From a virus, in the IMG/VR virus record IMGVR_UViG_3300042691_024710, positions 1 to 45,761 of that record: a stretch of 45,761 nucleotides of DNA; one strand, 5' to 3'. Shown in pieces: positions 12,601-44,442 of this stretch. Position 1 is the first letter of the stretch. Each line of letters opens with the position of its first letter. The notes beneath the pieces are model-generated. The model saw nothing but the letters and a program-made list of their open reading frames with translations, searched no databases and had not been told where the DNA came from. Made by a program: the position numbers and the translations under genes.

Positions 12601-14307
12601 TCAGAAATTAATACTGCATTAAGACAAACTACTAATAATGAATGTGGTGCATTGTTTTCTGAATCTATTCCTGCTGCTGAATACTTTAGAGCTAAAATAA
12701 TGTATTTTGATTATACTGAAGAAAAGTGGTTACCTAAAGGTGCACCATGTCCTGAGCCATATCACTATAATATAGACTTTTCAAGAATGGCTAAAGAAAA
12801 AATATATTTTCCCTTAGATAGTGGATATGATTGTTGCTCAGAATGTTTAGAAAGTTTTCCATCAAGAGTATATTATTCTGAACAAAGTTTTTCAGAAGAA
12901 AGTGGAGATAACTTTAGAGTTATACTTCCTAACAATTACAGAGATATAGAAGCTGAACATGGTGGTATTACTGATTTACTTAGAAAGAATAATAACTTAT
13001 TAATTTTTACTGAAGAATGTTTGTGGAATTTACCACAGAATGTTCAACAACAAACTGTAAATGAAATAGTTACATTCTTAGGTACAGGTAGTTATTTTTC
13101 TATACCACCAAGAAAGTTAGTAGATTCAGATATGGGTAGTGCAGGTACAAGACATAAATGGTCAGTAACTAAATCACCATTAGGAGTAGTTTATGTATCT
13201 GAAATAGAAAAAGCAGTTTACTTAATTGGAGGACAAGAAGGAATACAAAATATTTCTAATCAAGGAATGTATAATTGGTTTACTGAAAATACTCAATCAT
13301 ATTTAGCTACTCAGTTTTTTAATCTTACTGGAATACAATTTCCTAATGTTAATAATCCAAATAATCCTAATGGTGTAGGTATTCATGGTATATATGACCC
13401 AAGACATCAAAGAATTATATTAACCAAAAGAGATTATCTTTTATTAGTTAAAAGTGTTATTACATTTAATGAAGCATTACCTGACCCAATAATTGAAGGT
13501 CAAGTATATTTCAATACAAATACTAACTTATTTTATGTAGGTCAAGATGATGAATTAGTACAAATAACTTTTGATGATAATAAATATTTTGAAAATAAAT
13601 CTTATACTATAAGTTTTTCAGTATTAACTAATTCATGGATTTCATTTCATTCTTATTTACCATTGTTTTATTATAGTGACCATTATACTTATTATTCTTC
13701 TATATCTAATGCAATATATAAACATAATATAATAGGTAGTCATCAAAAGTATTATGAAACATTATACTCACATCTTATTGAAACTGTATCTATTTCTAAT
13801 CCTATGGCAACAAGATTATGGTCAGATATACTTTTAGAAACTTATGCAAGAACATGGGATGCAGTAAATCAAGATTATTATGATATTAGAAATGTAACAT
13901 TTAACTATCTTACTCTGTATAATAGTAGACAGATATCAGGAGAATTAAATATGATAGTTAAAGATACTCAAGCTAATCCTCAAGATTATTATGAACAACA
14001 AACTACTAATTCTAACACATCAATTGTTATTGATAGAAAAGAAAGAGATTGGCACATTAATGATTTTAGAGATATGAGAATTGATTATTTAATATCAATG
14101 TTTACTAAAGCATGGAGTAGTATATTATCAGAATATCCTATTGATAAAGTAGTCAATCCTCCAGTAATAGATATTAATAAAGATTGGTATCAACAAGAAA
14201 GTTTTAGAGATAAATATTTAATAATAAGATTAAGATTCAGTAATTTTGAAGGAGTAGAACTAACTACTAATTTTGTTATTGAAACTGAACAACAATCCTT
14301 TAGATAA
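9613..14307 (+). CDS. Tail muzzle / nozzle protein (crAss gp44-like, P22 gp10-like region)
   Basis: This 1564-residue protein starts in a one-base overlap with the adaptor gene. N-terminal and middle parts are propeller-like: CWELPIGFLPIGSC (about 53-66), YFTDGLNPVRQIN (about 127-139), ENRLIVANTKGKQV (about 336). A long hydrophobic stretch (about 903-958, GIIGGILGVLAIAAAAVLTV and onward) interrupts it. The region about 1087-1240 has VYYSEQSFSEESGD, NNNLLIFTEECLWNLP, GTGSYFSIPP and GGQEGIQNIS.QGMYNWF, a pattern of phage nozzle proteins. It has many cysteines, unlike the cargo genes after it. Size, order and motifs fit the protein that forms the distal tail tube in PhicrAss001. Confidence 0.8.
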   Translation: MDKNVNRPNKGMVQDTNPVDQPKETYRYALNAVNETNDGNRNLLNNEKSNEKCWELPIGFLPIGSCYTINNEVLIFSVNPSTNVSAIGIAKDCDYKEILNSECLGFSIEHQIDATYRVKNGCERIFYFTDGLNPVRQINIDALDSYYSAAYIAWLANPIGPFVGEKWNCNLFALIAPYQIPCFADAQVVNGGSLLSGSYNFAIQYGDAEGNSTNWVTISRPVNIYLDSQYLPYLNIFGSSNLESDALGGTAVPSNKAIQLNISNLDTSFSVYRVACIRATSFTGLVTSAVVSPDIPITQNIFIYNGNPNGFTELEPNDITLGRLNLEYAQHIEQLENRLIVANTKGKQVNFCGFQRYASKIASHYIVKDVADTNALDEGNPKNPLSPFECVGFMGGEVYAFGIVYVFKDGFESPAYHIPGPPVNERWDWDTDTCVDIVTEYGVTPDNEFVAPWNRDIEHIVPDIPALVTAYNAAPYVEKWRVYETAIATTPGVEGQMAYWQCLNSYYPELESCDGGDYWGEDFCGNAIVNNPIRHHRFPSRTLEPHVDNDSGVQTYYAIQVKITIVTAWPTGVTDINLTTDYEVNLVLQTPVITNVEEADFVDGVYTTNVITIAVDNPTDISNIFGSGDFFTTYAADFTVEYSVVFAYDVPYNGSTLKLLGVKFDNVEYPHPDIVGHYFVRAERDDFNRTILDSGIIGKMRGTPTDSFDYMTFSYFTRGNQNGVYHHYVFTPKFLYQRQNLRPEYTKVELEFNYNKKALSYILEDGVGSFIVDTDTLIECRGQFYSGTDNTNGDTNRATYNIMTLNGASYEDNFTPPQRVYNTSLINNIQVLLAYPIPNPVNSDNIRYMTYRVERDVHSNLDSISYYKMHNCVIESEGDQPDIFAGDVYITQFKLTNTLYREFFNGIIGGILGVLAIAAAAVLTVLTFGAATPLLIGTIVLASIGITATAIATTVNAMKESNLDATVADNELDNLFFAVDSVTAYANEYLLGVYVESEINTALRQTTNNECGALFSESIPAAEYFRAKIMYFDYTEEKWLPKGAPCPEPYHYNIDFSRMAKEKIYFPLDSGYDCCSECLESFPSRVYYSEQSFSEESGDNFRVILPNNYRDIEAEHGGITDLLRKNNNLLIFTEECLWNLPQNVQQQTVNEIVTFLGTGSYFSIPPRKLVDSDMGSAGTRHKWSVTKSPLGVVYVSEIEKAVYLIGGQEGIQNISNQGMYNWFTENTQSYLATQFFNLTGIQFPNVNNPNNPNGVGIHGIYDPRHQRIILTKRDYLLLVKSVITFNEALPDPIIEGQVYFNTNTNLFYVGQDDELVQITFDDNKYFENKSYTISFSVLTNSWISFHSYLPLFYYSDHYTYYSSISNAIYKHNIIGSHQKYYETLYSHLIETVSISNPMATRLWSDILLETYARTWDAVNQDYYDIRNVTFNYLTLYNSRQISGELNMIVKDTQANPQDYYEQQTTNSNTSIVIDRKERDWHINDFRDMRIDYLISMFTKAWSSILSEYPIDKVVNPPVIDINKDWYQQESFRDKYLIIRLRFSNFEGVELTTNFVIETEQQSFR

Positions 14308-17771: not shown

Positions 17772-17777
17772 ATAATT

Positions 17778-20297
17778 ATGGGAAGATTTTATAAAACAGC
17801 TAGTCCACAAATGGTGGACTTTATGTATAAGATTCCTGAACAAGCTTTACTTAAAGCAATAGAAGGAGTTGATAAACAAATAGAAAATGAAGAATTATAT
17901 AGAACAGAAACTTCAAAGTTACTGCAAGAAAAAGCTTTAGCTCCTGATTTACAAAGACAAAAAGAAAAACTTGAAGGGTATCAAAAAGAAATAGATGAAG
18001 TAGCTTCATTATATAATACAAGTTCTTTAGGTGCATTAAAAGATAAAGATAGAATTAGAGCTTTGAGAAATAAAATATATCAAGATGTAACAAGAGGAGA
18101 AATTGCTGCACAGTATAAAAATTATGATATAAGACAAAAGCATCTTGAAGAAGAAACTAAAAGAGCTACTGATAAAGATGGTACTGTAAGAGAAGAAGAT
18201 TTAGCTATAGCAATGAAAAAGTTTGATGAAGCTTTTGCAAAAGGAGATGTAGATGACCAAGGTAATATTGTAAAACCAGGTGGAACTGCTTATGACCCAA
18301 CAACAAAAGCATATAGAACTTATGCTCCTGAAAAACTTGTAGATTATTTTGATGTTTCAGAAGAAGCTAAAGTACAATCTGAAGGTTGGGTATCTGACAT
18401 TGATGAAAAAATTACAAAACAATATTTAGACCCAAGTGGTAATTATTTAATTACTGATACACAAGGAAAAGAAATATTACCAAAAGATAATCTTACTTTT
18501 GGTTTATATAATATATTGACTAGTAATCCTAAAGTTACTAATCAAAGAAATCAAATGATAAAGATTAAGAGTGGAGCAAAACCAGGTACTGAAGAATATT
18601 TAAAAGAATGGGAAAGTGTATATGGAGTAAGACAACAAAGAGGAAACTTAAGCAGTCCATTTGCAATGGAAACTGTAATGCAAACTGTTACAGACCCTGA
18701 AACAGGTAAGACAGAAACAAAACCTTTAACAAGAAAAGTTCAAAAATATGATGAAAATGGAAATCCTGTAAAAGGAGAATTTGAAGAAAAGGAAGTAAAA
18801 AGAATGGTTAATCCAGGTGAAATATATTCAATTGCTCAAGCAGCAGCTGAAAGAAAAGATAAAAATAAAATTGAATCTTCAGTTACTAGACAAGCTACTC
18901 CAGAATATGAAAAGTTTTTACAACAGCAAAAAGAAATTGCAGTTGCTGAAGCAATAGCAGATGATAAAGAAAAAAGAGAAGCAAAAGCTTCAGTACAATT
19001 TAGTAATAATCAAGCTGAAATTACTGAATCAGTAATAACTGCTACAGATTCTTATGAAGCTGAAAAAAATATTGAAAAATTAAAAGATAATGCAATTAGT
19101 TTAGTAAATAATGCAAAGAAAAATTATGTACAATTAATTAAAGATAAAAAACTTTCACCTAATGTTGAAAAAGAAATTTTAACTGAACTTTATGAAATAA
19201 AGTCTACTGATTTCAAATCATTACAAGCATTATTTGAAAAACATAAAGCACATGGTTTAGCAGGAGTTGGAACAGGAGTTAAAGAATTAGAAGCACAGTA
19301 TAATAAATCAATGAATGAATATGAAAAACAAGATAAGCATTATAGTATAATATCAAAAGCAAATAAACCTAGTACTTACGATGATATTAATGCAAAATAT
19401 AAAGAAGCTGAAGCAAAACTACAAGAATTAAAAGACCAAGGATTAGATTATAATAATAATTTATGGAAAGAAGCTTCTAATGAATTTAATAAAATTAAAA
19501 ATCAAAGAAGTGCATTAATAACTCAATGGAGAAAAGGTATAAATAATTCTTTAGATGTTAACAATAAAGAAACAATGAATGCTAATACAAGAAGTGTATA
19601 TGCAATGGGAGGTAGTGAAATTGAAAAATTATCAGGTAAAAAAGTATTTACAGGATATGTTAATGCATTAAAAAATATTAAAGCAAGTAATCTATTTCCT
19701 CACTTATTGTCAGGTTCAAATGCAGTAGTAGTTGAAAAAGGTGGAAAATCAAAAGCAACTAATTTTACTGAATTAATAAAAGATTTAAAAATAAATCATG
19801 AAGTAGTTAATGCAATGGATAGTGGTGAAAAAGTAGAAGTAGAAGGAAACAAAACTGTTACTTTTGAAATGGGTTCTGCAAGAGTAGTACCTGATGAATT
19901 AATAGTACCATTAGTCCAAAATGGAAAAAAGATTAATAAAAATTTAGGTGAAAATAGTATTCAAGTAACTATGAAAGTATATGATAAAACTACAGGAAAA
20001 ACTACAGTTAATGAAATTTATATTCCTGCAAATGAAATTTATAATACTGATTTAAAAAAGGGAAATGATGATTTTGCAAAATTTTATAAACCTAATAAAT
20101 TTAAAAACAGAACAAATAGTGATTTTGGTAATATAAAATCAAAAGCAAAAACAGAAGATAAAGAAGATTATTTCCAAACAACTGAAGAAGGTCATAAATA
20201 TTATCCTAATTCTGATTCATGGATTTTTAATAATGGTTATTCAGCTACAGGTTCAGATGCTCTTGATTACTATAGAAACTTATTAGGTATTAATTAA
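17778..20297 (+). CDS. Cargo / ejection protein, helical N-terminus
   Basis: This 839-residue protein lies six bases after the previous stop. The first 140 residues are strongly helical and charged (IPEQALLKAIEGVDKQIENEELY; KLEGYQKEIDEVASLY), followed by an EF-like acidic stretch (about 150-165) that has no clear calcium-binding pattern, long coiled-coil-like segments (about 360-600), and a beta-rich C-terminal domain (about 640-790). I see no cysteine in it. No enzyme motif is visible. Position between the GG-motif cargo protein and the virion polymerase, and its general style, fit the internal proteins that crAss-like phages package and eject. Confidence 0.7.
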   Translation: MGRFYKTASPQMVDFMYKIPEQALLKAIEGVDKQIENEELYRTETSKLLQEKALAPDLQRQKEKLEGYQKEIDEVASLYNTSSLGALKDKDRIRALRNKIYQDVTRGEIAAQYKNYDIRQKHLEEETKRATDKDGTVREEDLAIAMKKFDEAFAKGDVDDQGNIVKPGGTAYDPTTKAYRTYAPEKLVDYFDVSEEAKVQSEGWVSDIDEKITKQYLDPSGNYLITDTQGKEILPKDNLTFGLYNILTSNPKVTNQRNQMIKIKSGAKPGTEEYLKEWESVYGVRQQRGNLSSPFAMETVMQTVTDPETGKTETKPLTRKVQKYDENGNPVKGEFEEKEVKRMVNPGEIYSIAQAAAERKDKNKIESSVTRQATPEYEKFLQQQKEIAVAEAIADDKEKREAKASVQFSNNQAEITESVITATDSYEAEKNIEKLKDNAISLVNNAKKNYVQLIKDKKLSPNVEKEILTELYEIKSTDFKSLQALFEKHKAHGLAGVGTGVKELEAQYNKSMNEYEKQDKHYSIISKANKPSTYDDINAKYKEAEAKLQELKDQGLDYNNNLWKEASNEFNKIKNQRSALITQWRKGINNSLDVNNKETMNANTRSVYAMGGSEIEKLSGKKVFTGYVNALKNIKASNLFPHLLSGSNAVVVEKGGKSKATNFTELIKDLKINHEVVNAMDSGEKVEVEGNKTVTFEMGSARVVPDELIVPLVQNGKKINKNLGENSIQVTMKVYDKTTGKTTVNEIYIPANEIYNTDLKKGNDDFAKFYKPNKFKNRTNSDFGNIKSKAKTEDKEDYFQTTEEGHKYYPNSDSWIFNNGYSATGSDALDYYRNLLGIN

Positions 20298-20323
20298 AAT
20301 ATTAAATTTTAAACTAAATATAT

Positions 20324-35300: not shown

Positions 35301-37957
35301 AACAGGTTATTCATAATGCTAAATCTGGTGATAAAGTAGAAACTAATGAAACTCAAATCAATAAAGTATTAGCAGCTTATGCTAAAGCTAATAACTTTGA
35401 AACTAAAGTATTTAATAAACAAGAGTATGTACAAATAAATGGTAAAGTTTTAAATGTAAATACTGGTTCAAAAGTTATTCAAAAAGAGATTGTAGATTTG
35501 TTTAATGTGTCAACACAACAAGAATTTATAAATTTAACTAAAGACCAATTTAATGTAATAGCTAGTGTTGAAAATATAAAAACTGGTGAATTATTAATAC
35601 CAATAATGGTACCAACAGATAATGATATAACAAGAATAGATGTATTATATAAAAATGGTAAATTAATTAATGAAGATACTAATAAAGAATTAACAGATAA
35701 AGAAAAACAATTATTTAGTTCTGCTTATAAATTTGCATTTAAGTTTTTTACAGAAATGAATAAAGCATTAAATAAAGTTAAATATTCAGTAGATAAATAT
35801 GAAAATGAATTTTCACAAATTTTTAAAACAGCAAGAGAAAATCCAGATTTTTTAGAATTAGATAAACCTTTTATTGATTTTTTAAATGAAGTAAAAGGTA
35901 TTTATGATTTTAGAAAAGAAGTTAGTAAAGGTATAATGAGTTATACTACTTGGTTAATTAATCCTAATTATTATCATAGTGATGTTAAAATGTATGCTAT
36001 TGATATATTTAAAACAAGTCCTATTTATAAATTATTTGAATATTATAATGCATTTACTACTCAGCCTAATGTAGTTTTAGTTACTGAACCTACTGTATCT
36101 AATCCTGTTAAGAATGATTTATTAAATATTCTTGAAGAAATACAAAAAGATATTGATGAAGATAGTGACAACTTAGATTTTCCTGTTGTAAATGCTGGAG
36201 AGTTTTCAGGTTATCCTAATATTCAAAAATATCTTAATAGTGAATTTGGTATAGAACAAAGAGAGTATCAATACTTTAAAGCAAACAAAGATGTAGTAGA
36301 AAATTTATTATCAGGAATGAAAGAAGTTAATCCTAATAATTTATTAGAAAAACTTAAATCTATAACTGATACTAATGATACTGGAGTTAATTCTGATATT
36401 AATCCTATTATTAGTGCTGATACTAAGAAAGACCAAGAATTACTTAAAAAAGCTAATGAACAAATAAAGAATACTAAGTATGAATTATTTCCTGGTGTGA
36501 ATGCTAATGTAAAACAAACAGAAGCAATAGATAAATTAACAGATTTCTTAAAAACACCAAGAGATAAATCAGAAAAAACTCAATCTACTTTTGTATTAGT
36601 AGGTAGAGGTGGTACTGGTAAAACTACTATTGTTAAAAAAATTGTAGATGAATTTCCTGGTAAAACAGTAGTAGGTGGAGCTATATCTCATACTGCTAAA
36701 AACAATCTAAAAAAATCATTAAAAGTTAAAAATGTAAGAACTATTGCTTCATTAACAGGTATAGGAGTATTTGATGATTTAAATGATTTCAAAGATACAA
36801 CTTTAGAAAGAGCTGATATTATCATTATAGATGAATGTTCTATGATTGATGCATTTACTATGAATAGAATTTATCAATTAGCTAACCCTAATGCTAAAAT
36901 TATATTCATGGGTGATAATGTTCAGTTACCTCCTATTAATGAAAAATCATCTCCTACTTTTGATGCAGCTACTAAACCTGAATACAATGCTAAATTAACT
37001 GAAAGAATGCGTCAAGGTGAAGATTCTCCTATTGTACCTTTATCTGATATTGTAGCAGAAAATATTGAAAGAGAAGAAAAACAAATAGAAAGAAAAGTTA
37101 TCAAAAGAAGAGATAGTAATTTCAATCCTATTACCAATAAAGGTGTAATCTTTACAGAAAACAATAATGAACTAATGAGTAATCTTGAAAGAGATTTTAA
37201 AGCTGATGTTCAAAATACTAAGATTATAACTTTCACTAATGATGAAGGTAAAAGTGGTAGTTCTGATAATAAAAAAGAAATGAATAGAGTAGTAAGAAAT
37301 ATTTTATGGGGAGCTGATGCTAAAAATGAATACAATATAGGTGAAATATTAGTAGCTGATAATATTATTTATGATGCTAATATTCTTAATGGTGAATATT
37401 ATGAAGTTCAATCTGTTAAACCAATAAATGATGCAGTTAAAATTACTGATATTGAATTAGTTACAGGTAAAGGAGTAGTGCAAAAAGTAAAAACTTTTCC
37501 TGGTTATTCTTTAAAAGTAAAAGTAATTTCTGAAACTGATAATTTTAATAAAATAATAACCTTAAATTTGCCTTCTGCTGATTCTAAAGAAAAAATAAAT
37601 GAAATTCAAGACAGATTAGAAAAAGCTAAGAAATCATTATTTATTCAGAATAAAAAAATAATACCTGATGTTAATTATGGTTATGCTATTACTTCTCATA
37701 AATCTCAAGGTTCTACTTTTAACAATGCTTATGTAATGGAAGATAATATTATTAATTCAAGAATGGATAATAAACAAGCTAATCAAGCATTATATGTAGC
37801 AATGACAAGACCAAGAAATAAATTGGTAATGTTTTCTCAATTAAAAGAAGGTGAGTTTTTAACTGAGAAAGAAAAAGCAAATATGGTTAAAGACAGGTCA
37901 TTACAACCTGAAGAAATAGAAGATTGGACATCACAAACAAATGAATGTGGTATTTAA
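20324..37957 (+). CDS. Giant virion RNA polymerase polyprotein with C-terminal SF1B helicase
   Basis: This 5877-residue protein is one open frame. Residues 1-450: helical, with small-residue hydrophobic stretches and AGEEAGSEFIEEGF. About 480-1300: coiled coils and charged linkers with EVKP. About 2140-4150: polymerase region, including LWLAANANRFES, LKFPGSSFVAGSEEG, AFRIPTSGHMSAAQVEIVGFLP and GLDFDVDKE with D3610, D3612 and D3614, the DxDxD metal site of crAss virion RNA polymerases (double-psi beta-barrel, related to YonO and QDE-1). About 4380-4620: a metallopeptidase-like domain with KELMHS in place of HExxH. About 4625-4880: small modules separated by PEVK linkers. About 5390-5860: SF1B helicase with Q-motif (Q5398), Walker A GRGGTGKT (5427-5434), Walker B IDECSM (D5503, E5504), GDNVQLPP, TSHKSQGST (5790-5798) and YVAMTRPR. 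Only three cysteines are seen (2, 5505, 5875). Role: packaged enzyme for early transcription. Confidence is high for polymerase and helicase, lower for the rest. Confidence 0.9.
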   Translation: MCPGPDNNNPLVNQNTNPITPLSPEEFASKSKQGALIGQQLEVLTPKFTDSGESFSDITSSTTSAFDNAYEERMKELEKEVVKEEYDDFLSGAGKFIANTATTAGAFTLDLLGFITDPADWRLPTVGGSIDAVTGLFGYKTNAADYTGWVDPLAYVNKGFEALDDYTLLGDGDVTGNGWTRAAQTARDYANHYFQVNTTNDWWDWGVNSTSMILGNAAGMFVPGAAIAKGAQLANLSQRANTLLNAFVMTESTGMQIAQDVHDKVYGEVLNTLSNGQLKNVEDAAYQQAYQDAINNGNNTKDAEWAGMQASKEARNEFALANPELGAQASKNAGYGADIALKGMAPIFAFNLITANAFTKSLYNPRNILSKPSRVGMMKAGEEAGSEFIEEGFLEKQAEQIGVSYGTKGEYTAKDLSSIVWDYDKNTLNYANLYEGAMGALAGGLMSAGRDVLSYGKRKKDYDTQQETIEKQNEIGAVSNIKDTAGIRQIVDNATTITKNIQQVSQLAKQASLLDAMGKKEQANIIKSKMLDVQAYQAFSTGTTANLIENYEKIASNTNAGPEVQMRAREAVAQIKQMEEIYKQTRGKFINDQEIYSSKILNLSVDKAEKQLETEIIQKKLEADAAIKLELESGRTSLSKDVSVIDNETGKVVETKKEQLGYDVSNLKVNPYTNTDTKDAETYRNFSEHIGNNVQAVRELNELQERLGEVKKLKEQNFEHYNEITSKPYQNSLRFERKFFNSISKSQKELEEVKGTDKYMPLVESVLEKYKGKITDKRYNQIKEYFEEENNTKKVAEQAAKEEIKKNEFAKTPTDTEVKPTGEEVVSEKVKPEGTKAMLESVANKLATGQSVKNLSQEEQQFYMNNSEIVDKRRGELQSGKDTNTQSEITEDEEISTEIENLSGQVSTELDEILEATTPGEKESEVKPLSKSEVKDALGTSVSQESNVKIKPVTEKSQRQINAEQEIVKYENIIKEEESKQPLTSEQLELIEEHNERKENLERHKEFLKEKKYNYSWSVDEINYYYFDEDGDLMVGVKDGAKIGYTDEINSNKVKRIEKKQGKEAAINFIKETLRKGEPRERKRLIDKINNLESIINKDEKLIQELENKQSDTTKIDEAKTKIEENKRIIEEEKNKSKITPVVEQKQPTLSQKEQEILNSFKDNKASKPLINRKFAANKSEIESLLAKGIIKEDGNNYVIAGREAQEVTLTVEKTKAEQVADNLLAKEFTLNPKGTYDLQINLKALTPEERADVEDAVKVINERIKNNQLDGWKIEKQSNPLFEAVTITKPNLTSNQPMEEGDVSYQPDEIPSLTKEQEEKIKDLIESYATTMEIDNNKFPTFEELVKSYIRTVGKEKAEKHLKLLGTGWELNGYGTINDYNAILRKLFGKYEDIALGLSAMSEELSQSVATPVEVKEKQKELIEKEEIKDSRIPIDVTPDKQVVYSTETDIVSDTSPKLGFSLFDFTISQTVRDKDGKTIVTTNTINEGLKKKLDEDKLVKAIKTANFENVKVGTKLTVGVNPLNELNRVKSWVIPVRVEDKNDPLYGNDVVEKGKVKTITFGEWLDQKLEESGLLVEEFIETQEFWDRVPILVSDEQGDFIGQIRDIGWYTPTKFGGDINEARRNVNEIRKAIKEAFKRGENSVFEITSITGGKYTPLILTETIPLKQANPQAMVGLIVRHKDGSLKTFIYENGKRKEVKVENLSVITGAEENKSKSMMIVDIRRWGTDEEGNPTYKAFYSTSPKLSASQVETVKNIIYSKFIVANTQLSTSQNNKFAKTLDAINSTVGIDLSNNDAFVDLLKRFVFISPISKNISAEYYQSLVNKVNEGKIEEVENELVKKYFTNIKPLKTGETAILSLSPNTIIVAKATANGTQVKIINNNTIPVENNEIQKTEDFLQRDALLKEVLQNSFLNGYAQANYYLQPVIQVNNDFTVTTIANSYPEFVQNNILTNLMSINVGTNDNPVYATRLQSNIYYKPVGTTEGKSISRKEGQVIVSDSKVTEKDKQTITNVVESASDEAFEDAVEGVEQDGFELFGETKEEKAEDLKSVVKKMNNESKEIVENHLEAKPNLEDITEYNEFLTQASNKVKWVNEYFNEDDTETAESLESNQPREIGEEDIKDMNINLLRINGISSRHQTQIAIHAAVKLGDILSDEKINQKEVRDKVVEEINKVLGANKEALQETLAELKSIPQYQDRPKVMSLVVKYETALNKINLLLENVDVVYQESLSMVLKDLNGKVTENKQIEIGNDPKENDLDNEENEEDIDDELSEEEDRYLGTENYSKTSLEVNPKASITSTLRRFMRGIPDINSSTGLPKTGAMGVTTYVDFDTVYDVVQSLLADAPVDFNMMMDILEVNKGTQPWLPILITKLKESSSEVKNQFTTTMGKHALTMEFLMYYFDEDKNVTFKIVNTNLSSINRKIKDEWRNNLKTSNVLIDEYGNVSRETVDELLRTYNSWMETPSSLRSEYQRFIKERLKLDETSFKADENDRTKGIAEELKKQESKSKITNVDGKEYLVSLGSDNTITISPYGRNIVSKAIVNYNNLTPQELKQATEEIQDWFDAFGIQLTDNAIDGLFKDKKTTAEQFFEKNNTFAVGTLVQWLNTTQKALSQDKEVTITDESKNNPLENSSINDLAYHQSKYSSGIVTSSFRDGKKSIYGFTAFKFITDRANEIKNKPEFRENLRKLSFSKKSFWLQLFEDGVELPVFNFKNRFNVTHLGLTALKELSKKLYRDNGITALGDVDHELVKVGMHQADQGALSKPFTIFGQQVSLRNITTLFPTMSDKSTMTLIKTLGLNLADKKYFNKTESGKLVPNKSIAEFIFEQTVLPEIERVINFNAKNPNGTDIKNYDKGAKMLLLMPHLNDLVIFEQDGKKVTLNEAINTTDADLQKVLLKKDVIITEVQNYVSALVEKKMQVWAANGYYTVKEETFYKDDTDEIEGITSTKTKVTNKLLDKKYMEGVVADSQLEKIEIAAMDFEINQMLSNANAFMTMIGDPAVYYKADSSKSYIQQSKETFVNVGKRLALMIAPGSKLADSETEQYTQVMIDDRLAMSENVSFLTEVLDNKKFDWKEYNRIKSLNTKSEDPVEAKKLKDEQKKQFKEFYAKYPNSNGYFDIEGTDAQEYTTWQEHLHILEKLGRLSDATATITPEEIREAKEMFANNVPLEKMSDKQKGILKKVLQPIKPVYTGQIFDEAQDVMRTVYIKSSSFPLIPQVTKGTELEKLRSALEDLQKEGAGPNPSPYKYVRASYQTANKVGAKSKVIQIYEDDGSIKKLKPEELKASSLILNRKDFKIQLDVPFKSFKKKEDTVSLGTQLNKILFGNGIMDATGFMYNGVEVTGKELEKEYTKAFIELSNLKRQQLYDELGIDIKTNKPTDVRATAAKLQNILKTEAVNRGYSKQDVEALEVIIKEIGGEEDLTFKLPLWLAANANRFESLLNAIVNNRIVKLKFPGSSFVAGSEEGFKFQHDFKDVDENKIVWTNKWNGQGLQAAKYDADGNLQYAQVIAPSKFRKKDGTLIDLLSKNEYGQYIYVIESKTGNKTSFKLKENMIDPELRNITAFRIPTSGHMSAAQVEIVGFLPNEQGDLMIVPRNLTKQKGLDFDVDKENTYQLWHETSETGKITVLKEGDREKLLQNEIIKIHTAVLSNPSKEVQKKINNILSIDYAKEQAENIDEMISSTKDDTFFTPLSSEYQKEKMFLGASGKIGIGAYSLDVTTHSLFEQAKAKGNQVSLNYSEINDAGKTITNPFHMSFEGEGHTDGTLGNQETIDGERTIAQVLSELQNIATDNEKEQVMGRVNLNSYTLDVSKILAMLGFDKAKNGNSIQFTFLSQPIIREYVKEMDNANSNVAEFNPNKESAVIIKLLEKYGNKNYELGYDVDVRNTKNFTMDKMENQLKGNVDNDFQLAVLNRFLELKKLGVAVRTLQTAINTDSKGLGKSILDNSQKIESINNLLINPLITNASTLLGNFVPIVKMNKEGNKVRVLSEEEYQSYINEGYVKFGDNLFLPTTVSGVFTANALVTATSLWDRHFPYNSQLFKTIFDSLMPLISKSEASDARKVEKKTMVIKEIKRYLNSYTAASTLFDNINAQAERERLFFDRTSTGKASLATYIKDLKRTNSSLASNKLIERLELVVSTQGEPSLIKFNNSSSGFYDENGLNNALLELMELNINLPSFNGEPYTSRKLAQDLITYSYLEGGVQEATQFVKFIPLSYLDKMGFSLNLSNIDFNSKGATSIFDIIANAPNNNSKFITQFAQHNPAVLPKLDNYIPGIDKRKDLDKLLNFNVQDLSKEADGLTMPDFVSMRYEGKYLLWKKTGQGNYTQIPVVQSGISEYDNKVQQITPLASEIIVPQNPIKEQPLSPTSDESRVTNETRFGLNTDASLTDIVTNLANSIGIDEYLVTLAKQLLPAIDSSTTITVGDIKTKGKYQMPENAIIISRAQAKNATDTELARTILKELMHSITNKELAKHVYRSSADNKYYLQSSNAPKYISELIRLFNQVSKIPEFEKAMEAIKKKLAIEGQEQVLTQQENRIYYGAYDVYEFVEMMMTQPEFQKEMAKIKTDSGKSVLDLFKNFINTLFKNLGVKFETGTVASEAIENILILVDEKGRLKQQAPEVKSTKLPSEKNMEIETIQYILNSIIEFIPNHNGSIAGSSSIIDFVINKLKNNPIYKNFNEIELEELSENILLNIADITNQLNLKNGIKIEETIDGIYYTKINSKNDIKNDKDKISNITNFIKNYKQPIQTPEVKPVSKNKISDNIKSFVNSLIPNWIDNKNNELSLASEFKSIQLLSEGESTIEDRINFGKEAEKLIREGVRGKNPFEGVTFESQIPNLLYAVISGKLAESNISEKDMYDNIFSTQPEVKSTTTTQPSTVITDAKADIQRRRQEAIDSIQTMEELGLEAPIGKEGFFYADAFGVDPEESDLDSFEGKTKQEVIDKINAKYNAELAALESSKPSTTSEKPFTTKVDQFTYTYNPVTKQVIHNAKSGDKVETNETQINKVLAAYAKANNFETKVFNKQEYVQINGKVLNVNTGSKVIQKEIVDLFNVSTQQEFINLTKDQFNVIASVENIKTGELLIPIMVPTDNDITRIDVLYKNGKLINEDTNKELTDKEKQLFSSAYKFAFKFFTEMNKALNKVKYSVDKYENEFSQIFKTARENPDFLELDKPFIDFLNEVKGIYDFRKEVSKGIMSYTTWLINPNYYHSDVKMYAIDIFKTSPIYKLFEYYNAFTTQPNVVLVTEPTVSNPVKNDLLNILEEIQKDIDEDSDNLDFPVVNAGEFSGYPNIQKYLNSEFGIEQREYQYFKANKDVVENLLSGMKEVNPNNLLEKLKSITDTNDTGVNSDINPIISADTKKDQELLKKANEQIKNTKYELFPGVNANVKQTEAIDKLTDFLKTPRDKSEKTQSTFVLVGRGGTGKTTIVKKIVDEFPGKTVVGGAISHTAKNNLKKSLKVKNVRTIASLTGIGVFDDLNDFKDTTLERADIIIIDECSMIDAFTMNRIYQLANPNAKIIFMGDNVQLPPINEKSSPTFDAATKPEYNAKLTERMRQGEDSPIVPLSDIVAENIEREEKQIERKVIKRRDSNFNPITNKGVIFTENNNELMSNLERDFKADVQNTKIITFTNDEGKSGSSDNKKEMNRVVRNILWGADAKNEYNIGEILVADNIIYDANILNGEYYEVQSVKPINDAVKITDIELVTGKGVVQKVKTFPGYSLKVKVISETDNFNKIITLNLPSADSKEKINEIQDRLEKAKKSLFIQNKKIIPDVNYGYAITSHKSQGSTFNNAYVMEDNIINSRMDNKQANQALYVAMTRPRNKLVMFSQLKEGEFLTEKEKANMVKDRSLQPEEIEDWTSQTNECGI
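34199..34217 (+). repeat. Direct repeat copy 1, PEVKST linker
   Basis: The 19-base string CCTGAAGTTAAATCTACTA occurs here and again at 34943-34961, both in frame and both encoding PEVKST. A shorter variant, CCTGAAGTTAAACCT, lies at 34595-34609. The copies sit between separate modules of the giant polymerase protein. Confidence 0.75.
34943..34961 (+). repeat. Direct repeat copy 2, PEVKST linker
   Basis: This is the exact second copy of the 19-base repeat at 34199-34217, 744 bases downstream and in the same reading phase. Recombination between the copies would delete 248 codons without a frameshift. Confidence 0.75.
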
Positions 37958-37969
37958 AAAATAAAATAT

Positions 37970-39754
37970 ATGAGCTGTAGACCATTTAAAACATCAGAAG
38001 CTAATGCTAAAGCATTTCTTAAAACTAAAGGTGCAATAGATAACTTTCTTAATATTAAAGACTTAAATACTTTTAGAAAAGAAAATGCTATTCTTAAAGA
38101 ACAAGCTAAGAATAAATACTTTCCTAATGTTAAAGATTGGAATGAAAAAATATTTTTTGAAAACAGAGAAGGCACTAAAGCAATTCCTAATAAAAAAGTA
38201 TTTAAACAAATAGATAACATTAATGGAATATATTATTCTCCTACTGAGCAAATAGTTAAAACAGAAAAAACAGTAAATTCATTAGCTAAAGCAACTTATT
38301 TTAAAGATTCAGATACAAAAAAAGCATCTGATGTATTTACTGAAATTAGTAAAAGTAATTATCCATTAAATAAACTTGCTGAGAAATTATTACCTTATGT
38401 AAAAGCTAATGATGTAGATATTGAATTATCAAATGAAACCTTTAAGTTTAATCTTGAAGATGGAACAGAAACAACAGCAGCTGGAGTATATGATAGTAAC
38501 AATAATAAAGTAATGCTATTTAAAAATGAATACTTTGATAATATTGAAAAATTAATTATTCATGAAGTATTACATTCTATAAGTGCATATCAATTAAAAC
38601 AAGATTCTGAAACTAATAATGATTTTAAAAAGCTATTTGATTATGCTAAAGAAAACATACCAAAAAGTTATGAATTAGAAAACATAGATGAATTTTTAGT
38701 AGGTATATTTACTGATTCAAAATTTATAAAACAATTACAAAAGTTACCTGCTATTGAAGTAAAAAAATATAAAAATTTTCTTGAAGAAGTTATTGATTAT
38801 TTATTGTCTTTAATGAAGTTAACAAAAGGAACTACTTTATATGACCAAGCATTTGATATAGCTACTAATGTGTTAGAAGAACAAAAACAGTATTCTGAAA
38901 CAATGAAAAATGAAGAAGAATACATGAGAAAACAAATAGAAGAAATGGATAATTATTTATATTCTTCTGCTCAAAAAATTACATCAGGAGTAGAAGAACT
39001 ATTTAATGAGAATCCTGAATTAGCTAATCAAGTATATGAAGCTTTAGGGTTTGATAGTTTAATTACATCTAACGATAAAATAATATATGGACATCCAGGA
39101 ATAGGTAAAACATATTTAAGAGATAGTGGTAGAACAAATGTAATTGATTTTGATTCTGATTATAAAAATAAAATTAATGAAAAATTTAATTTACCTAAAG
39201 GTTTTAAAGCAAGAAATGATTTTCAAAATAATAATAAAGAAAAATATCAACAAGCTATAAGAGAACTTTGGAATGAAGCTAAACAAGAAGCTAAAGAAAC
39301 AGGTAAGCAATTATTTGCTTCTGATATGATTTTATTAAGAGAATTTGCTAATGACTTTGACAAAGTTATTACAATGTCAAAAGAAACTTTCATTAAAAGA
39401 GCTAAACAAAGAAATGATTATACTCCAGGATTAGAAGGTACTGAAGGTTGGAAGAATAGTTTAGATATTGCAATTGCTAATATAAATAAATCTAAAGTTT
39501 TTACAACTGATAAATATTTATCAGATTTATTTATAACTCCAGAACAAAAACAACAAGCTTTACAACTATACTCTCAATATTTAAATACAGGTAAAAATGA
39601 CATAAAAGGATTTAAAGAATTTGTAGAAAAACAATCTGGTCAAGAAGTAAAAGAAAAAACTCAAGAAACTAAAAAAGATATAGTATCTTCAGCTATTGAA
39701 AATCAAATTGAAGAGCTTATCAGAAAAGGTATTATTAAATCTAAATGTGATTAA
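37970..39754 (+). CDS. Metallopeptidase-like (HExxH) plus P-loop protein
   Basis: This 594-residue protein starts 12 bases after the polymerase gene. Its middle domain (about 120-300) has IIHEVLHSI, with H198, E199 and H202 forming the zincin HExxH, followed by a helical half with DEFLVGIFTDSKFIKQL and NFLEEVIDYLLSLMKL. The same helical plan follows the degenerate KELMHS in the polymerase protein, so the two are probably paralogs. The C-terminal domain (about 365-530) has Walker A GHPGIGKT (374-381), then VIDFDSDYKNKI, like P-loop kinases rather than ATPase motors; its substrate is unknown. The only two cysteines seen are C3 and C593. Zincin domains are known in phage polyvalent proteins. Whether it processes virion or host proteins is open. 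Confidence 0.75.
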   Translation: MSCRPFKTSEANAKAFLKTKGAIDNFLNIKDLNTFRKENAILKEQAKNKYFPNVKDWNEKIFFENREGTKAIPNKKVFKQIDNINGIYYSPTEQIVKTEKTVNSLAKATYFKDSDTKKASDVFTEISKSNYPLNKLAEKLLPYVKANDVDIELSNETFKFNLEDGTETTAAGVYDSNNNKVMLFKNEYFDNIEKLIIHEVLHSISAYQLKQDSETNNDFKKLFDYAKENIPKSYELENIDEFLVGIFTDSKFIKQLQKLPAIEVKKYKNFLEEVIDYLLSLMKLTKGTTLYDQAFDIATNVLEEQKQYSETMKNEEEYMRKQIEEMDNYLYSSAQKITSGVEELFNENPELANQVYEALGFDSLITSNDKIIYGHPGIGKTYLRDSGRTNVIDFDSDYKNKINEKFNLPKGFKARNDFQNNNKEKYQQAIRELWNEAKQEAKETGKQLFASDMILLREFANDFDKVITMSKETFIKRAKQRNDYTPGLEGTEGWKNSLDIAIANINKSKVFTTDKYLSDLFITPEQKQQALQLYSQYLNTGKNDIKGFKEFVEKQSGQEVKEKTQETKKDIVSSAIENQIEELIRKGIIKSKCD

Positions 39755-39765
39755 ACTTATATAAC

Positions 39766-42700
39766 ATGGGATGTACTTATGAATTTATGGGTAAACTTTA
39801 TACTAAGGAGCAACTAACTCAGTTGCTCCAGGATAAAGGTATTCAAAATAAAATAAAAGTATTAGAACGTAATCTTACTGAAGATTATGGAGTATCTAAT
39901 TCACCTGAAGAAACATCTTATGAATTTTCAGAAGAAGATTTTGTAGCATTTGATGATACTATACCTACTAATGATGACAATATTAACTTTGATATTGCTC
40001 AAGAAACTGATGTAGATATGGTATTAGATTATGATAAACTTGTAAAGTTTAAAAGAAATCTACTCAATACTCTTAACAACAGGATAGCTAATCTTAGAAG
40101 TTATATTGCTTCATTAACTGATAAGAATAAAATAAAAACTAATACAAAGTTAGTAGAAGAATTACAAGAAAGAGCTAATATATTAGACCAGGAAATATAT
40201 AATGAAAAGAATGCAGGTGAAACATCTTTACAAAAATTAAAATTTCAAGCTCAAAGAGATTTAGAAAGACTTGATAAACTATTAAGTCCTAATGAAGCAT
40301 TAACAGATGAATATGAAAATCTACAAGAAGCTAAAAAGATACTTAACTTTTATAAAGCATTAGAATTAGTTCCAAGTAAAATTGATGTAGACAATAATGC
40401 ATTTAGTGTTCATCCATTTTTTAACATTGAAGAAATATTAGGACCAGAGGGTAAACCTATTATAGCTGATGAAATAGCTGCTGTATTTAATAATATAGCA
40501 GCAGAGTTTAAGAAAAAAGAAAAACCATACAATGATAGACAAAAAGTATTGTTAGAAAAAATAGTTAATTCTAATCCTAAAGTAAGAGAAATATTAGGAG
40601 AGAAATCTTATGATGAATTAATGCAAAACCTTGATGATGCTCATTATGTTGACATGTGGTTAATGGAAGCAAACAGAGGTATATTTTCTAAGAATGGTTT
40701 AATTCCACAAGTAGCATTAGAAATAATACAAGATAATGAAACTGAAAGTTTAAGTAAACATAAAGTATTTGAAGAAAAGCATAATGAACTTTTACCTAAA
40801 GTAAGAGCAGCATTAAAAAGATTAAATACAGGTTTACTTTCAGGATTAAAAGGAGTATCATATAATATATTTTTTCAACAAGTATTACCTGGAAAAACAG
40901 GTAATAAGCTTGTAAATAGATTTTCACAGGATTACTTTGATAGTATAGGTAATGTACTATTTAGATTTAAAGAATCATTGTTAAAAGCTCAGGCATTATC
41001 TCCAACAGAATTAAATGAAGAAGGAGATGAAGTAAGAAAAAAAGCTATTAATAATGCTTATGAAGCTAAACAAAAATGGTTTAGAGAAAATACAATGATG
41101 CTTGACATCAGAAAGTTACCTGAAATAGCAGCAATATTTCCTGAATTTGAATTGCAATCTCAAGATGATGGAGGTAAACATAAACAAGAGTTAATAGACC
41201 AATTAGGTGAAATAGGATATAAAGAGCAATTGAATAAACAGGTTAATGAAATTAAAAAATATATAGCCTGGAGAGATTCAATTCAAGAAATGTATCTTGA
41301 ACAAAGAAATGCAGAAAGTATAGGTGACTTAACTCAAGATGAATTAAACAATCTTAAACTTACATTAGGAACTCACAATCCATTTAATGCAGCAGCTTAT
41401 TTTTATGATAATGAAAAAGTAAAAGTAGGAGGTAAATTTGAAAATAGTTCAATGAATTATAATGTAACTATTCCAAGAAGATATAAAGCTGAAGCATTAA
41501 TAAATGCACAAGGTAAACTTACTATTAAACCAACTGGACAAGAAACAGGATTCTATGATAAAAATTATGAAACAATAGAATCTGATAAAGATTTAAAAGC
41601 TTACTATGATTTGATTAGTGAAAGAATGGAACAGGTAAGTGATATATTTCCTGAAGAAGTTAGAAAGAATTTGTTTTCAGGTTCTTTACCTATGATTAGG
41701 AAAACAGTAGCTGAAATATTAACTGACCCTAATATTCCTATTCTCAAAAGATTATCTAAAGCACTTAGTCAAATATATGAAAATATTAAATTAGGATTTG
41801 GTGTAAATCCTGATGATAGTATTTACCAAGATACTTTAGATGTCATTACTAATAAAGCAGAACCTAAAGTAAATGCATCATTTTTAAATAATAACAAAGA
41901 AGCAATATCTGAAAGATATGATATTGCAAAAAGAAAATTAAACAATGAATTAAAAAAAGCAGGATTACCTTTAAGAGTAAATAAATATACTGAAATATTA
42001 ACTGATGCTTTACCTTATCCTGTAACAAAATTATTAGCAGATAAATTAGGAATACCTGCAACTACTAATGCATTAAAAGCTAAGTTTGGTGAAAAAATAA
42101 AAGTAGGTGATGTATTATATAAATTAACTATATCAGAATTAGTTGAAGATAATTCATTAGACTTACCTAAGATTATAAAGTATTATTCAATGATGGGTGC
42201 TGAATATGAAGCAAGGCAAAAATCATTACCCTTAATATCAATACTTAAACAACATTATAATCAAATTAAAACTTCATTAAAAGCAGGACAAACTTTAAGA
42301 ACAAGAGCTAATACTCAATTTGAATCCTGGTTTAACAGAGTAGTGTTAGGTAATACTTTTGAAGATAAATTTGGAGTAGAAAAGAAAAGTACACTTGAAG
42401 AAAAGAAAACTGCTAAAGATAAAGTAAAAGCATTCTTTAAAGGTAGATTACTTTCAGGTGAAGATGAAAAAATGAGAAAAGATATTAACTCTTTAATAAA
42501 TGATATTGATAAAGAAATAGTTGATGTATCACAAGATAAGTCAGTAGAAGCTCAAGTAAAACTTAATAAGTTAATAGAAGAAAAAGATAAATTAATAATT
42601 AAGAGAGAAAAGTTAGGAAAAAGAGGTTCATTGTCAAAAGGTATTGATGCATTATTAAGTCATATTAGATTCTTAGGATTAGGTTATAAACTTAGTTCTA

Positions 42701-44442
42701 TGGTAACCAACTTCTTAGAAGGTCAAATAGCTAACATGACTATTGCAGCAACAGGGGATTATTTTGAACCTAAGCATTATTATAGAGCAATGCATATTGT
42801 TAAAGGTAGTATAGTTAAAAATGCTACTTTTGGTAAATTTGCAACTAATGGTTCACAAAAAACAAGAATATTTGCTGATAGATTTGATATACTTCAGGAT
42901 TCAACTAATGAATTACAAAAAGCATCTCAAAAAACTGCATTGAGTTATGTAGATTATGTTACTCCATATACAGGTAATAAAAGAGTAGAATACTTAAACC
43001 AAACTCCATTAATGGTAGCTGTAATGTTAGATACTGAAATTACAGGAAAGAATGGTAAAAAAAGTAGTTTATGGGATGCATTAGAAGCTAATGGAAAATT
43101 AAAACCTGAATTTGCTACTAAAGAAAATATTGAAGCATGGGAAGAAGGAAGAGGAGAAAAAGCTCAAGCATTTAAAAAGAATGTTAGTAATGCTATTGTA
43201 ACTGCTCATGGTAACTATGATAAGTTAAGAGGTATAATGGCTAAAGAATCAGTAGCAGGAAAAGTATTATTAATGTTTAAAACCTGGATTGGTTCTCAAT
43301 TATATCAAAGACTTGCTATTGAACAAGATGATTTATCAGCAAATGCTAAAGGATATAAAGGTAGATATAGGTCACATACTAAAGCATCTGCAATGTTACA
43401 TGGAGCATTAATAGGTGGAGCATTTGCAAGTTGGCCAGGAGCTGTTTTAGGAGGTGTATTTGGCTTAGGAGTTGCTATATATCAAGGTAAAGCAGTTAGT
43501 AAAACAGAACAAGAAAGTTCAATTGGTATATTAAAAGAAACATTATTTTTACTTAAAGCTATATTAAGAAAAATGATAGGTGCTCCTATTAGTCTTATAA
43601 CAGGTAAAAAAGCTAGTACTATTATTAATTATGTAGCAGGTAAAGAAATTATTTCAGAATATAGTAACTATGACAAATTAGTAGGTGCTCAATTTACAGA
43701 AAGAGATAAGAAAAATATGAGAGCATTAGTTTCTGAAATGTCAATTCAATTATCATTACTTGGATTTGGATTATTAGTAAAACAATTATTATGGGATGAC
43801 GATGATGAAGAAGATGACCCTAAAAGAATAAATCATAATATTTTAATGAACTATGTAAATCAATTACAAGAATCAGCAGCATCATATATTATATTACCTA
43901 ACTCATTTGAAACATTATTTGGTAGAGTAGGTTTATTTGATTTTTGTAATAAAGTTGGTAAAGTAGTAAATTCATTAACAGATTATGCTAATAAAAATGA
44001 TATATCAACTGATGGTGCTAATCAAGGAGAATCTAAAATGTTGGAAGCACTTAAAAAAGTTACACTTCCTGCTATTGTAACTCAAGATGCATTAGGATTT
44101 GAAACTTTAGGTGAAAGACAATTTTCTCCTACATTTTATGATGACTGGTTTTGGGATGATGAAAAAGTAGCAAGAAGAGTAATAGAACAAAAAAGAGCAG
44201 TAGTTAAAAAAGAATTAGAAAAAGAAGGAATACCTGAAGAAAAAATAAAAAAAATATTAGATAGAACTTTAAAGCTACCTAAAGATATTGATGACCCTAA
44301 TAGTAGAACAGCAACTAAAAGTATTAAAAAAGAAAAAGAAAAACTAACTGATGAAAAAAAGAAATTTGTTAAAGAGTATGAAGAGAATTTAAAACAAAGA
44401 ATGAAAGAAGAGCAAGAAGAAGAAAAAGAAGAGGAAAAATAA
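39766..44442 (+). CDS. Large cargo / ejection protein with hydrophobic C-terminal region
   Basis: This 1558-residue protein starts 11 bases after the previous stop and is the last gene of the rightward operon. The N-terminal two thirds are helical and highly charged (about 70-190 and 460-530 coiled-coil-like). The C-terminal third has GKVLLMFKTWIGSQLYQRLA (about 1165-1184), a Gly/Ala-rich hydrophobic stretch ASAMLHGALIGGAFASWPGA and onward (about 1205-1243), a second hydrophobic helix SIQLSLLGFGLLVKQLLW next to an acidic run (about 1326-1350), and a Lys/Glu-rich tail ending EEKEEEK. Only C3 and C1394 are seen. I do not assign a family, though the C-terminal region resembles domains at the ends of phage polyvalent proteins. 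Membrane association during ejection is an inference from the hydrophobic stretches. Confidence 0.75.
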   Translation: MGCTYEFMGKLYTKEQLTQLLQDKGIQNKIKVLERNLTEDYGVSNSPEETSYEFSEEDFVAFDDTIPTNDDNINFDIAQETDVDMVLDYDKLVKFKRNLLNTLNNRIANLRSYIASLTDKNKIKTNTKLVEELQERANILDQEIYNEKNAGETSLQKLKFQAQRDLERLDKLLSPNEALTDEYENLQEAKKILNFYKALELVPSKIDVDNNAFSVHPFFNIEEILGPEGKPIIADEIAAVFNNIAAEFKKKEKPYNDRQKVLLEKIVNSNPKVREILGEKSYDELMQNLDDAHYVDMWLMEANRGIFSKNGLIPQVALEIIQDNETESLSKHKVFEEKHNELLPKVRAALKRLNTGLLSGLKGVSYNIFFQQVLPGKTGNKLVNRFSQDYFDSIGNVLFRFKESLLKAQALSPTELNEEGDEVRKKAINNAYEAKQKWFRENTMMLDIRKLPEIAAIFPEFELQSQDDGGKHKQELIDQLGEIGYKEQLNKQVNEIKKYIAWRDSIQEMYLEQRNAESIGDLTQDELNNLKLTLGTHNPFNAAAYFYDNEKVKVGGKFENSSMNYNVTIPRRYKAEALINAQGKLTIKPTGQETGFYDKNYETIESDKDLKAYYDLISERMEQVSDIFPEEVRKNLFSGSLPMIRKTVAEILTDPNIPILKRLSKALSQIYENIKLGFGVNPDDSIYQDTLDVITNKAEPKVNASFLNNNKEAISERYDIAKRKLNNELKKAGLPLRVNKYTEILTDALPYPVTKLLADKLGIPATTNALKAKFGEKIKVGDVLYKLTISELVEDNSLDLPKIIKYYSMMGAEYEARQKSLPLISILKQHYNQIKTSLKAGQTLRTRANTQFESWFNRVVLGNTFEDKFGVEKKSTLEEKKTAKDKVKAFFKGRLLSGEDEKMRKDINSLINDIDKEIVDVSQDKSVEAQVKLNKLIEEKDKLIIKREKLGKRGSLSKGIDALLSHIRFLGLGYKLSSMVTNFLEGQIANMTIAATGDYFEPKHYYRAMHIVKGSIVKNATFGKFATNGSQKTRIFADRFDILQDSTNELQKASQKTALSYVDYVTPYTGNKRVEYLNQTPLMVAVMLDTEITGKNGKKSSLWDALEANGKLKPEFATKENIEAWEEGRGEKAQAFKKNVSNAIVTAHGNYDKLRGIMAKESVAGKVLLMFKTWIGSQLYQRLAIEQDDLSANAKGYKGRYRSHTKASAMLHGALIGGAFASWPGAVLGGVFGLGVAIYQGKAVSKTEQESSIGILKETLFLLKAILRKMIGAPISLITGKKASTIINYVAGKEIISEYSNYDKLVGAQFTERDKKNMRALVSEMSIQLSLLGFGLLVKQLLWDDDDEEDDPKRINHNILMNYVNQLQESAASYIILPNSFETLFGRVGLFDFCNKVGKVVNSLTDYANKNDISTDGANQGESKMLEALKKVTLPAIVTQDALGFETLGERQFSPTFYDDWFWDDEKVARRVIEQKRAVVKKELEKEGIPEEKIKKILDRTLKLPKDIDDPNSRTATKSIKKEKEKLTDEKKKFVKEYEENLKQRMKEEQEEEKEEEK
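39807..39829 (+). other. GC-rich hairpin inside the start of a coding region
   Basis: GGAGCAAC (39807-39814) and GTTGCTCC (39822-39829) form a perfect 8-bp stem, extendable by one A-T pair, about 40 bases after the ATG of the 1558-residue gene. Such G/C-rich pairing is unusual in this AT-rich DNA. It encodes part of KEQLTQLLQ and there is no T tract, so it is not a terminator. It could slow ribosomes or be chance. Confidence 0.4.

Follow-up and report, generated by a model that had tools for sequence, protein, structure and literature searches.

How do very large folded enzymes leave a capsid, pass through a narrower tail and two membranes, and refold? This question lies behind the interest of the window, the whole stretch of DNA analysed here, which is a 45,761-base viral contig fragment. 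The five long cargo ORFs that the initial annotation had described as nearly free of cysteine are all present, at the coordinates given below, and every feature of the cargo block lies on the plus strand. Directly upstream of the block is a crass-fold muzzle protein of 1564 aa (9613..14307; Pfam crAss_MUZ, E=6e-50; phrog_15100), the neighbor by which a crAss-like cargo module is recognized. It is followed by a cargo 1 (C1)-type protein of 1154 aa (14307..17771; phrog_15413), placed after the muzzle like crAss001 gp45, and by a cargo 2 (C2)-type protein of 839 aa (17778..20297) in the position of crAss001 gp46. The third protein (20324..37957) has 5877 residues, with cysteines at positions 2, 5505 and 5875, and is homologous to crAss001 gp50, phi14:2 gp66 and proteins of Fpv1 and cr118_1. 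It combines in one chain what PhiCrAss001 encodes as two proteins: gp47, or R1, and gp50, the polymerase, or R2. Alignments place the catalytic motif of the R2 polymerase core, GLDFDVD, at residue 3608 (31145..31165), and this GxDxDxD motif together with the homology to gp50 and gp66 identifies the protein as a virion RNA polymerase. Toward its C-terminus is a Dda/RecD2-like SF1 helicase domain (residues 5395-5838; 36506..37837; Pfam AAA_30 5e-24 and UvrD_C_2; PDB 9kwf and 3upu), whose only cysteine is in motif II (DECSMI, codon 36836-36838).

The last two proteins of the block are smaller. The 594-aa cargo protein (37970..39754) contains an HExxH motif at residue 198, a Walker A motif at residue 374 and cysteines only at positions 3 and 593; its homolog is partial, the N-terminal part of cr4_1 R3. 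The zincin-like HExxH motif is also found in a 1034-aa protein of the relative L013. An AlphaFold model of the 594-aa protein, built from two sequences, has a mean pLDDT of 37, too low to be informative. The R3 cargo protein of 1558 aa (39766..44442), with cysteines at positions 3 and 1394, is a homolog of crAss001 gp49; the similarity is weak but consistent (1.6e-5), and the protein resembles one from Fpv1 as well.

The best explanation of the block is a crAss-like podovirus module of ejected cargo, with two small cargo proteins followed by an R1-R2-(594)-R3 chain. Its proteins are homologous to the virion RNA polymerase cargo of crassviruses (PhiCrAss001 gp47, gp50 and gp49; phi14:2 gp67, gp66 and gp65, where gp66 is PDB 6vr4). 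Mass spectrometry detected the counterparts in PhiCrAss001 virions, and the authors proposed that this cargo is ejected with partial unfolding (PMC10172136). Ejection of the window cargo is inferred from this; the counterparts in phi14:2 are likewise annotated as virion proteins. As in the window, the cargo of both phages follows the muzzle, C1 and C2, is poor in cysteine and has cysteines at facing termini. The window differs from them in its fused R1 and R2, in the added Dda-like helicase, and in an R3 split into 594 and 1558 residues with a cysteine pair of its own.

The depletion of cysteine is extreme. A recount gave 0, 0, 3, 2 and 2 cysteines for the 1154-, 839-, 5877-, 594- and 1558-residue proteins, identical to the figures first reported, so that cysteine makes up 7 of 10,022 cargo residues (0.07%) compared with 96 of 4,766 (2.01%) in the remaining ORFs of the window (Fisher p = 4.5e-39). 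The latter value is still about 1.4% after removal of two very cysteine-rich ORFs at 486-2977; these encode 308 and 528 aa, are about 5% cysteine and have no PHROG match. The sharp switch described at the muzzle/cargo border is also confirmed: the muzzle has 22 cysteines in its 1564 residues, the adjoining C1 protein none in 1154, and the muzzle is thus the non-ejected border of the depleted block. Cysteine is the most depleted residue of the cargo (log2 -4.8), followed at a distance by histidine (-1.2) and tryptophan (-0.9), and TGT and TGC occur in the cargo genes 7 times in frame, 96 times in one of the remaining frames and 514 times in the other. The plentiful out-of-frame codons and the far stronger depletion of cysteine than of any other residue exclude base composition and codon bias as the cause, as had been argued from the neighboring proteins.

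Homologs with ordinary cysteine content would have spoken against a selected depletion, and we looked for them; the depletion recurred in every relative examined. The C2-type protein lacks cysteine in all relatives with a complete gene as well, and cargo cysteine in Fpv1, crAss001, phi14:2, p-crAss and cyanophage Lbo-JY46 amounts to 0.04-0.16%, compared with 1.0-1.6% elsewhere. Counts across phages extended the depletion to the unrelated ejected proteins of N4 (0 of 4,294 residues), T7 (1 of 2,261) and P22 (0 of 1,309), and cysteine was the most depleted residue in 9 of 9 phages tested (Fisher p 4.8e-8 to 4.5e-39). The N4 virion RNA polymerase (Schitoviridae gp50) resembles the window cargo in being injected and, at ~3,500 residues, almost without cysteine; unlike it, it is a single chain and has no joints. 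Ten of 13 N4-like virion RNA polymerases have no cysteine and the other three have one. T7 gp14-gp16 and P22 gp7, gp16 and gp20 are also ejected and nearly cysteine-free, but they are separate proteins with no facing cysteine pairs. Among T7-like phages, gp15 lacks cysteine in 44 of 44 cases and gp16 in 38 of 43; the nozzle protein gp12 of the same phages has 1-10. The helicase domain provides a comparison within one family: it has one cysteine in 444 residues in the window and one in 470 in cr118_1, compared with 5-10 per ~485 residues in free helicases of related phages. T7-like gp14 (L036:27728-28318) has one cysteine only, Cys 2, which 37 of 40 relatives keep, and T7 gp6.7 (L036:18864-19130) has Cys 2 too, a terminal cysteine in another ejection system.

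A near-absolute rule about one amino acid in unrelated podoviruses offers a sequence-based clue to which proteins are threaded. The stronger suggestion, that cysteine content alone could predict which phage proteins are ejected, did not hold. The virion RNA polymerase subunits of phiKZ contain 0.54% cysteine, a weak contrast with the 0.95% of its non-virion polymerase, and several proteins not known as cargo are poor in cysteine (the T7 and P22 scaffolds, the N4 major capsid protein, and phiKZ gp181 with 1 cysteine in 2,237 aa). Because of these two kinds of exception, low cysteine correlates strongly with ejection in podoviruses but does not predict it by itself.

The few cysteines that remain are not scattered. 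Five of the seven are among the first or last three residues of a protein, and four of the seven form facing pairs between consecutive proteins of the RNA polymerase type, so that both joints of the window (2/2) are flanked by cysteine. At the first, Cys 5875 of the R1R2 protein (C-terminus ..TNECGI; 37946..37948), which is the same in L013-L015, faces Cys 3 of the 594-aa protein (N-terminus MSCRPF..; 37976..37978). At the second, Cys 593 of the 594-aa protein (C-terminus ..IKSKCD; 39746..39748) faces Cys 3 of R3 (N-terminus MGCTYEF..; 39772..39774), which is invariant in the R3 alignment. Both pairs are kept in relatives at 38% identity. An unpaired cysteine at residue 2 of the 5877-aa protein (MCPGP..; 20327..20329) is common only to the close relatives L002, L004 and L007; it is kept in 85%-identical relatives and missing in 57-65% ones (L006, L008).

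The same arrangement is found in reference genomes. The three chain proteins of phi14:2 have 4 cysteines in 5,398 residues, all of them at joints (..NTIC facing MACK.. and ..KQECK facing MSCK). In crAss001, gp47 ends in ..RCNS and gp50 begins MSKRC; gp50 in turn ends in ..CGANTLYEL and gp49 begins MAKKC. Since crAss001 gp47 (R1) lies on the other strand, the pairing follows the order of the proteins and not the contact of the genes. The closest named relative of the window is the Flavobacterium phage Fpv1 group (Fipvunavirus); the Fpv1 record carries no Crassvirales taxonomy. Its 4401-aa R1R2 protein ends in ..KNCN and its 1596-aa R3 starts MACTV; unlike the window, it lacks both a 594-type protein and a helicase at the end of R1R2. 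Joint pairs are also present in DAC15, cr111_1, cr116_1, cr118_1, cr50_1, cr4_1, cr109_1, p-crAss, cr11_1, phi17:2 and Lbo-JY46, and in crAss002 if R2R3 is assumed to begin about 33 residues after its annotated start. The annotated start of crAss002 gp33 (L028:19243-31980) is probably too early by that amount; a start at MSCTPS fits both the joints and L122. In Lbo-JY46 and phi17:2 (L033, L034), which have R1- and R3-type proteins with joint cysteine pairs, a BLAST search for an R2 catalytic protein between these two gave no match.

Scans with one protein at a time, taken from the window or crAss001 gp49, returned only 4-9 relatives. The larger sample comprised 112 loci from IMG/VR that carry the R2 motif and fall into 95 clusters at 85% identity; they were compared through group alignments around the catalytic motif because an alignment of all groups was too diverse. 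We scored 81 complete joints between consecutive chain ORFs on crAss-like viral contigs; seven loci with interrupted or hard-to-start ORFs were set aside, six of which we inspected by hand. Among the first ten residues of the downstream protein there was exactly one cysteine, located at residue 2-7, in 81 of 81 joints, and the upstream protein had exactly one in its last seven residues in 77 of 81; in the remaining four the C-side cysteine is 16-29 residues from the end. Uniform placement would give 1.9 and 1.7 such cases. By contrast, the outer termini of the chain had no such cysteine (0 of 27 N-termini and 0 of 67 C-termini), and control ORFs of the same loci had a terminal cysteine in 10 of 101 (N) and 7 of 101 (C) cases (Fisher about 1e-40 for the N-side and 1e-37 for the C-side). 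All 34 of the groups below 50% identity show the pattern, and sequences aligned on the joint cysteine have no invariant neighboring position. The TAG-recoded loci in this sample (L042-L104) have more cysteine in the chain interior, 0.35% compared with 0.07% in standard-code loci (five times), and more elsewhere, 1.8% compared with 0.66%.

Loci in which the joints are absent are informative in the same way. Fused R1R2 proteins often have the C-terminal joint cysteine only (for example L134, L071, L110, L102 and L043; up to 4,796 aa). L127, in which R1, R2 and R3 form one protein of 5,824 residues, has no cysteine at its ends, at the joints or near the R1/R2 region, and in L009, where the 5877- and 594-type proteins are fused, the corresponding pair is missing. 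In L106, also fused, there is a cysteine near the R1/R2 region, and we consider the case ambiguous. An apparent R1R2 fusion flanked by two cysteines in L111 arose only because TAG had been read as Gln; this codon is a real stop. Where ORFs within the chain are broken in an intron- or frameshift-like manner (L063, L076, L079, L085), no cysteine is present at the break, whereas the true protein ends in these loci have one. In three of the four, the break falls at the catalytic motif, where self-splicing introns would be expected: the coding sequence of the polymerase is interrupted just after GSDFD at L076:9098-10193, L079:6118-6509 and L085:9726-10166, and one of the gaps (L076) holds a 215-aa ORF. 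From their position and this inserted ORF, the interruptions are likely self-splicing introns at active-site codons. We had predicted that the R1 of L125, encoded apart from R2R3, would end in cysteine, and this failed: it has none in its last 50 residues, though R2R3 starts MAC. A count of 9 changes between split and fused states on a tree was dropped, with few sound cases left, because six of the "split" labels (L077, L095, L101, L132, L133, L140) belong to loci that start inside the gene.

Cysteine is obligatory at termini that face a joint and absent at outer termini, which argues that it is used and not only avoided. We lean toward a model in which terminal disulfides join otherwise cysteine-free subunits into a single thread that is ejected, and are then reduced in the cytoplasm of the host. 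Selection would purge cysteine from proteins that pass unfolded through the tail, since threading in a setting where virion proteins form disulfides could not tolerate internal or wrong cross-links, and one cysteine would be kept at each end that faces another protein of the polymerase chain. In the particle, the C-terminal cysteine of one subunit would bond with the N-terminal cysteine of the next, so that R1, R2, (594) and R3 pass through the tail as one covalent head-to-tail thread. The disulfide would thus do the work of the peptide bond that joins these parts in relatives with fused genes, and the lack of other cysteines would keep a chain in transit from forming wrong bonds or loops. Once in the recipient, whose cytoplasm is reducing, the bonds would open, and the subunits could fold and assemble. 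We would give about an even chance to the fuller picture, in which the multi-part injected RNA polymerase of crass-like phages is a single covalent disulfide thread that passes in fixed order, a protein train released by redox state.

Disulfide formation, passage as one chain and reduction in the host are inferred from sequence. The thiols of virion proteins do become oxidised in at least one relative, since tail hub, ring and vertex proteins of PhiCrAss001 virions hold inter-subunit disulfides; the published map of that virion resolves nothing of the cargo chain except parts of gp45 (PMC10172136). Our literature search returned no biochemical data on a joint disulfide in the virion or on its reduction after ejection. 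Several observations count against the model: the L125 R1 without an end cysteine, the four C-side cysteines 16-29 residues in, the L106 cysteine, the unpaired Cys 2 of the 5877-aa protein, the 0.35% interior cysteine of many TAG-recoded gut loci, and the ejection of several separate proteins without such pairs by N4, T7 and P22.

The initial annotation had proposed selection on proteins that are threaded unfolded through the tail and cross an oxidising periplasm. In a threading-only form of that reading, cysteine is purged against disulfides and mixed disulfides during passage, and the terminal leftovers are tolerated, being unable to close a loop. Its account of the depletion stands: the effect is specific to cysteine, has a sharp border, recurs in relatives and is general among ejected proteins of the unrelated phages N4, T7 and P22. 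It does not account for the ends. Tolerance predicts an occasional cysteine at any terminus, whereas the joint-facing termini have one almost without exception and the outer termini never do, and joint cysteines are lost in fused relatives. We therefore regard avoidance by itself as unlikely to be the whole explanation.

A second possibility is that the terminal pairs serve assembly, a disulfide or metal contact holding the split polymerase together or fixing the stoichiometry of packaging, with depletion a separate consequence of ejection. One cysteine per side fits 1:1 pairing, about 6 copies have been suggested for each RNA polymerase protein (PMC10172136), and the terminal tails are joined in fused versions. 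However, two cysteines alone make a poor metal site, and histidine is not enriched near the joint cysteines (0.010 and 0.014 compared with 0.013), which disfavored a zinc-site reading of the termini. The enzyme works in the cytoplasm, moreover, where a permanent disulfide would be unstable, and we consider an assembly function distinctly improbable as the sole role of the pairs.

Long, helical, charged cargo proteins might be poor in cysteine in any case, and histidine and tryptophan are indeed somewhat low. We think this very improbable: cysteine lies ~2.5 to 5 log2 units below the next residue in 9 of 9 phages, TGY is common out of frame, and the cargo helicase domain is depleted relative to its free relatives. 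The idea that all virion proteins are low in cysteine, ejected or not, for which the T7 and P22 scaffolds, the N4 capsid protein and phiKZ gp89, gp90 and gp181 (0-1 cysteines each) could be cited, is more remote still, given the ordinary cysteine numbers of muzzle, portal, nozzle, adaptor and fiber proteins in the same phages.

If the terminal-disulfide model is true, disulfides would be reversible couplings that control the order in which proteins are delivered into a cell. The paired cysteines predict concretely which protein would bond with which, and at which residue. The crassvirus cargo proteins are of a known kind; what appears to be new is the rule of paired termini and the function proposed for it. 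A search of the accessible literature found no mention of cysteine depletion or terminal cysteines in ejected phage proteins, which does not prove novelty.

Two further features of these cargo regions were observed. The virion polymerase protein carries a fused Dda-like helicase at its C-terminal end not only in the window (36506-37837) but also in L025 (R1R2 residues 4440-4909); being part of that protein, the helicase would enter the host with the polymerase. Finally, a CGGK/CGGR motif (Cys-Gly-Gly-basic, sometimes followed by a second Cys) occurs in C1-type or neighboring small cargo-region proteins of crAss-like phages, at L016:41987-44515, L023:4738-6966, L024:7177-9675, L027:38835-39629 and L035:4270-5076.
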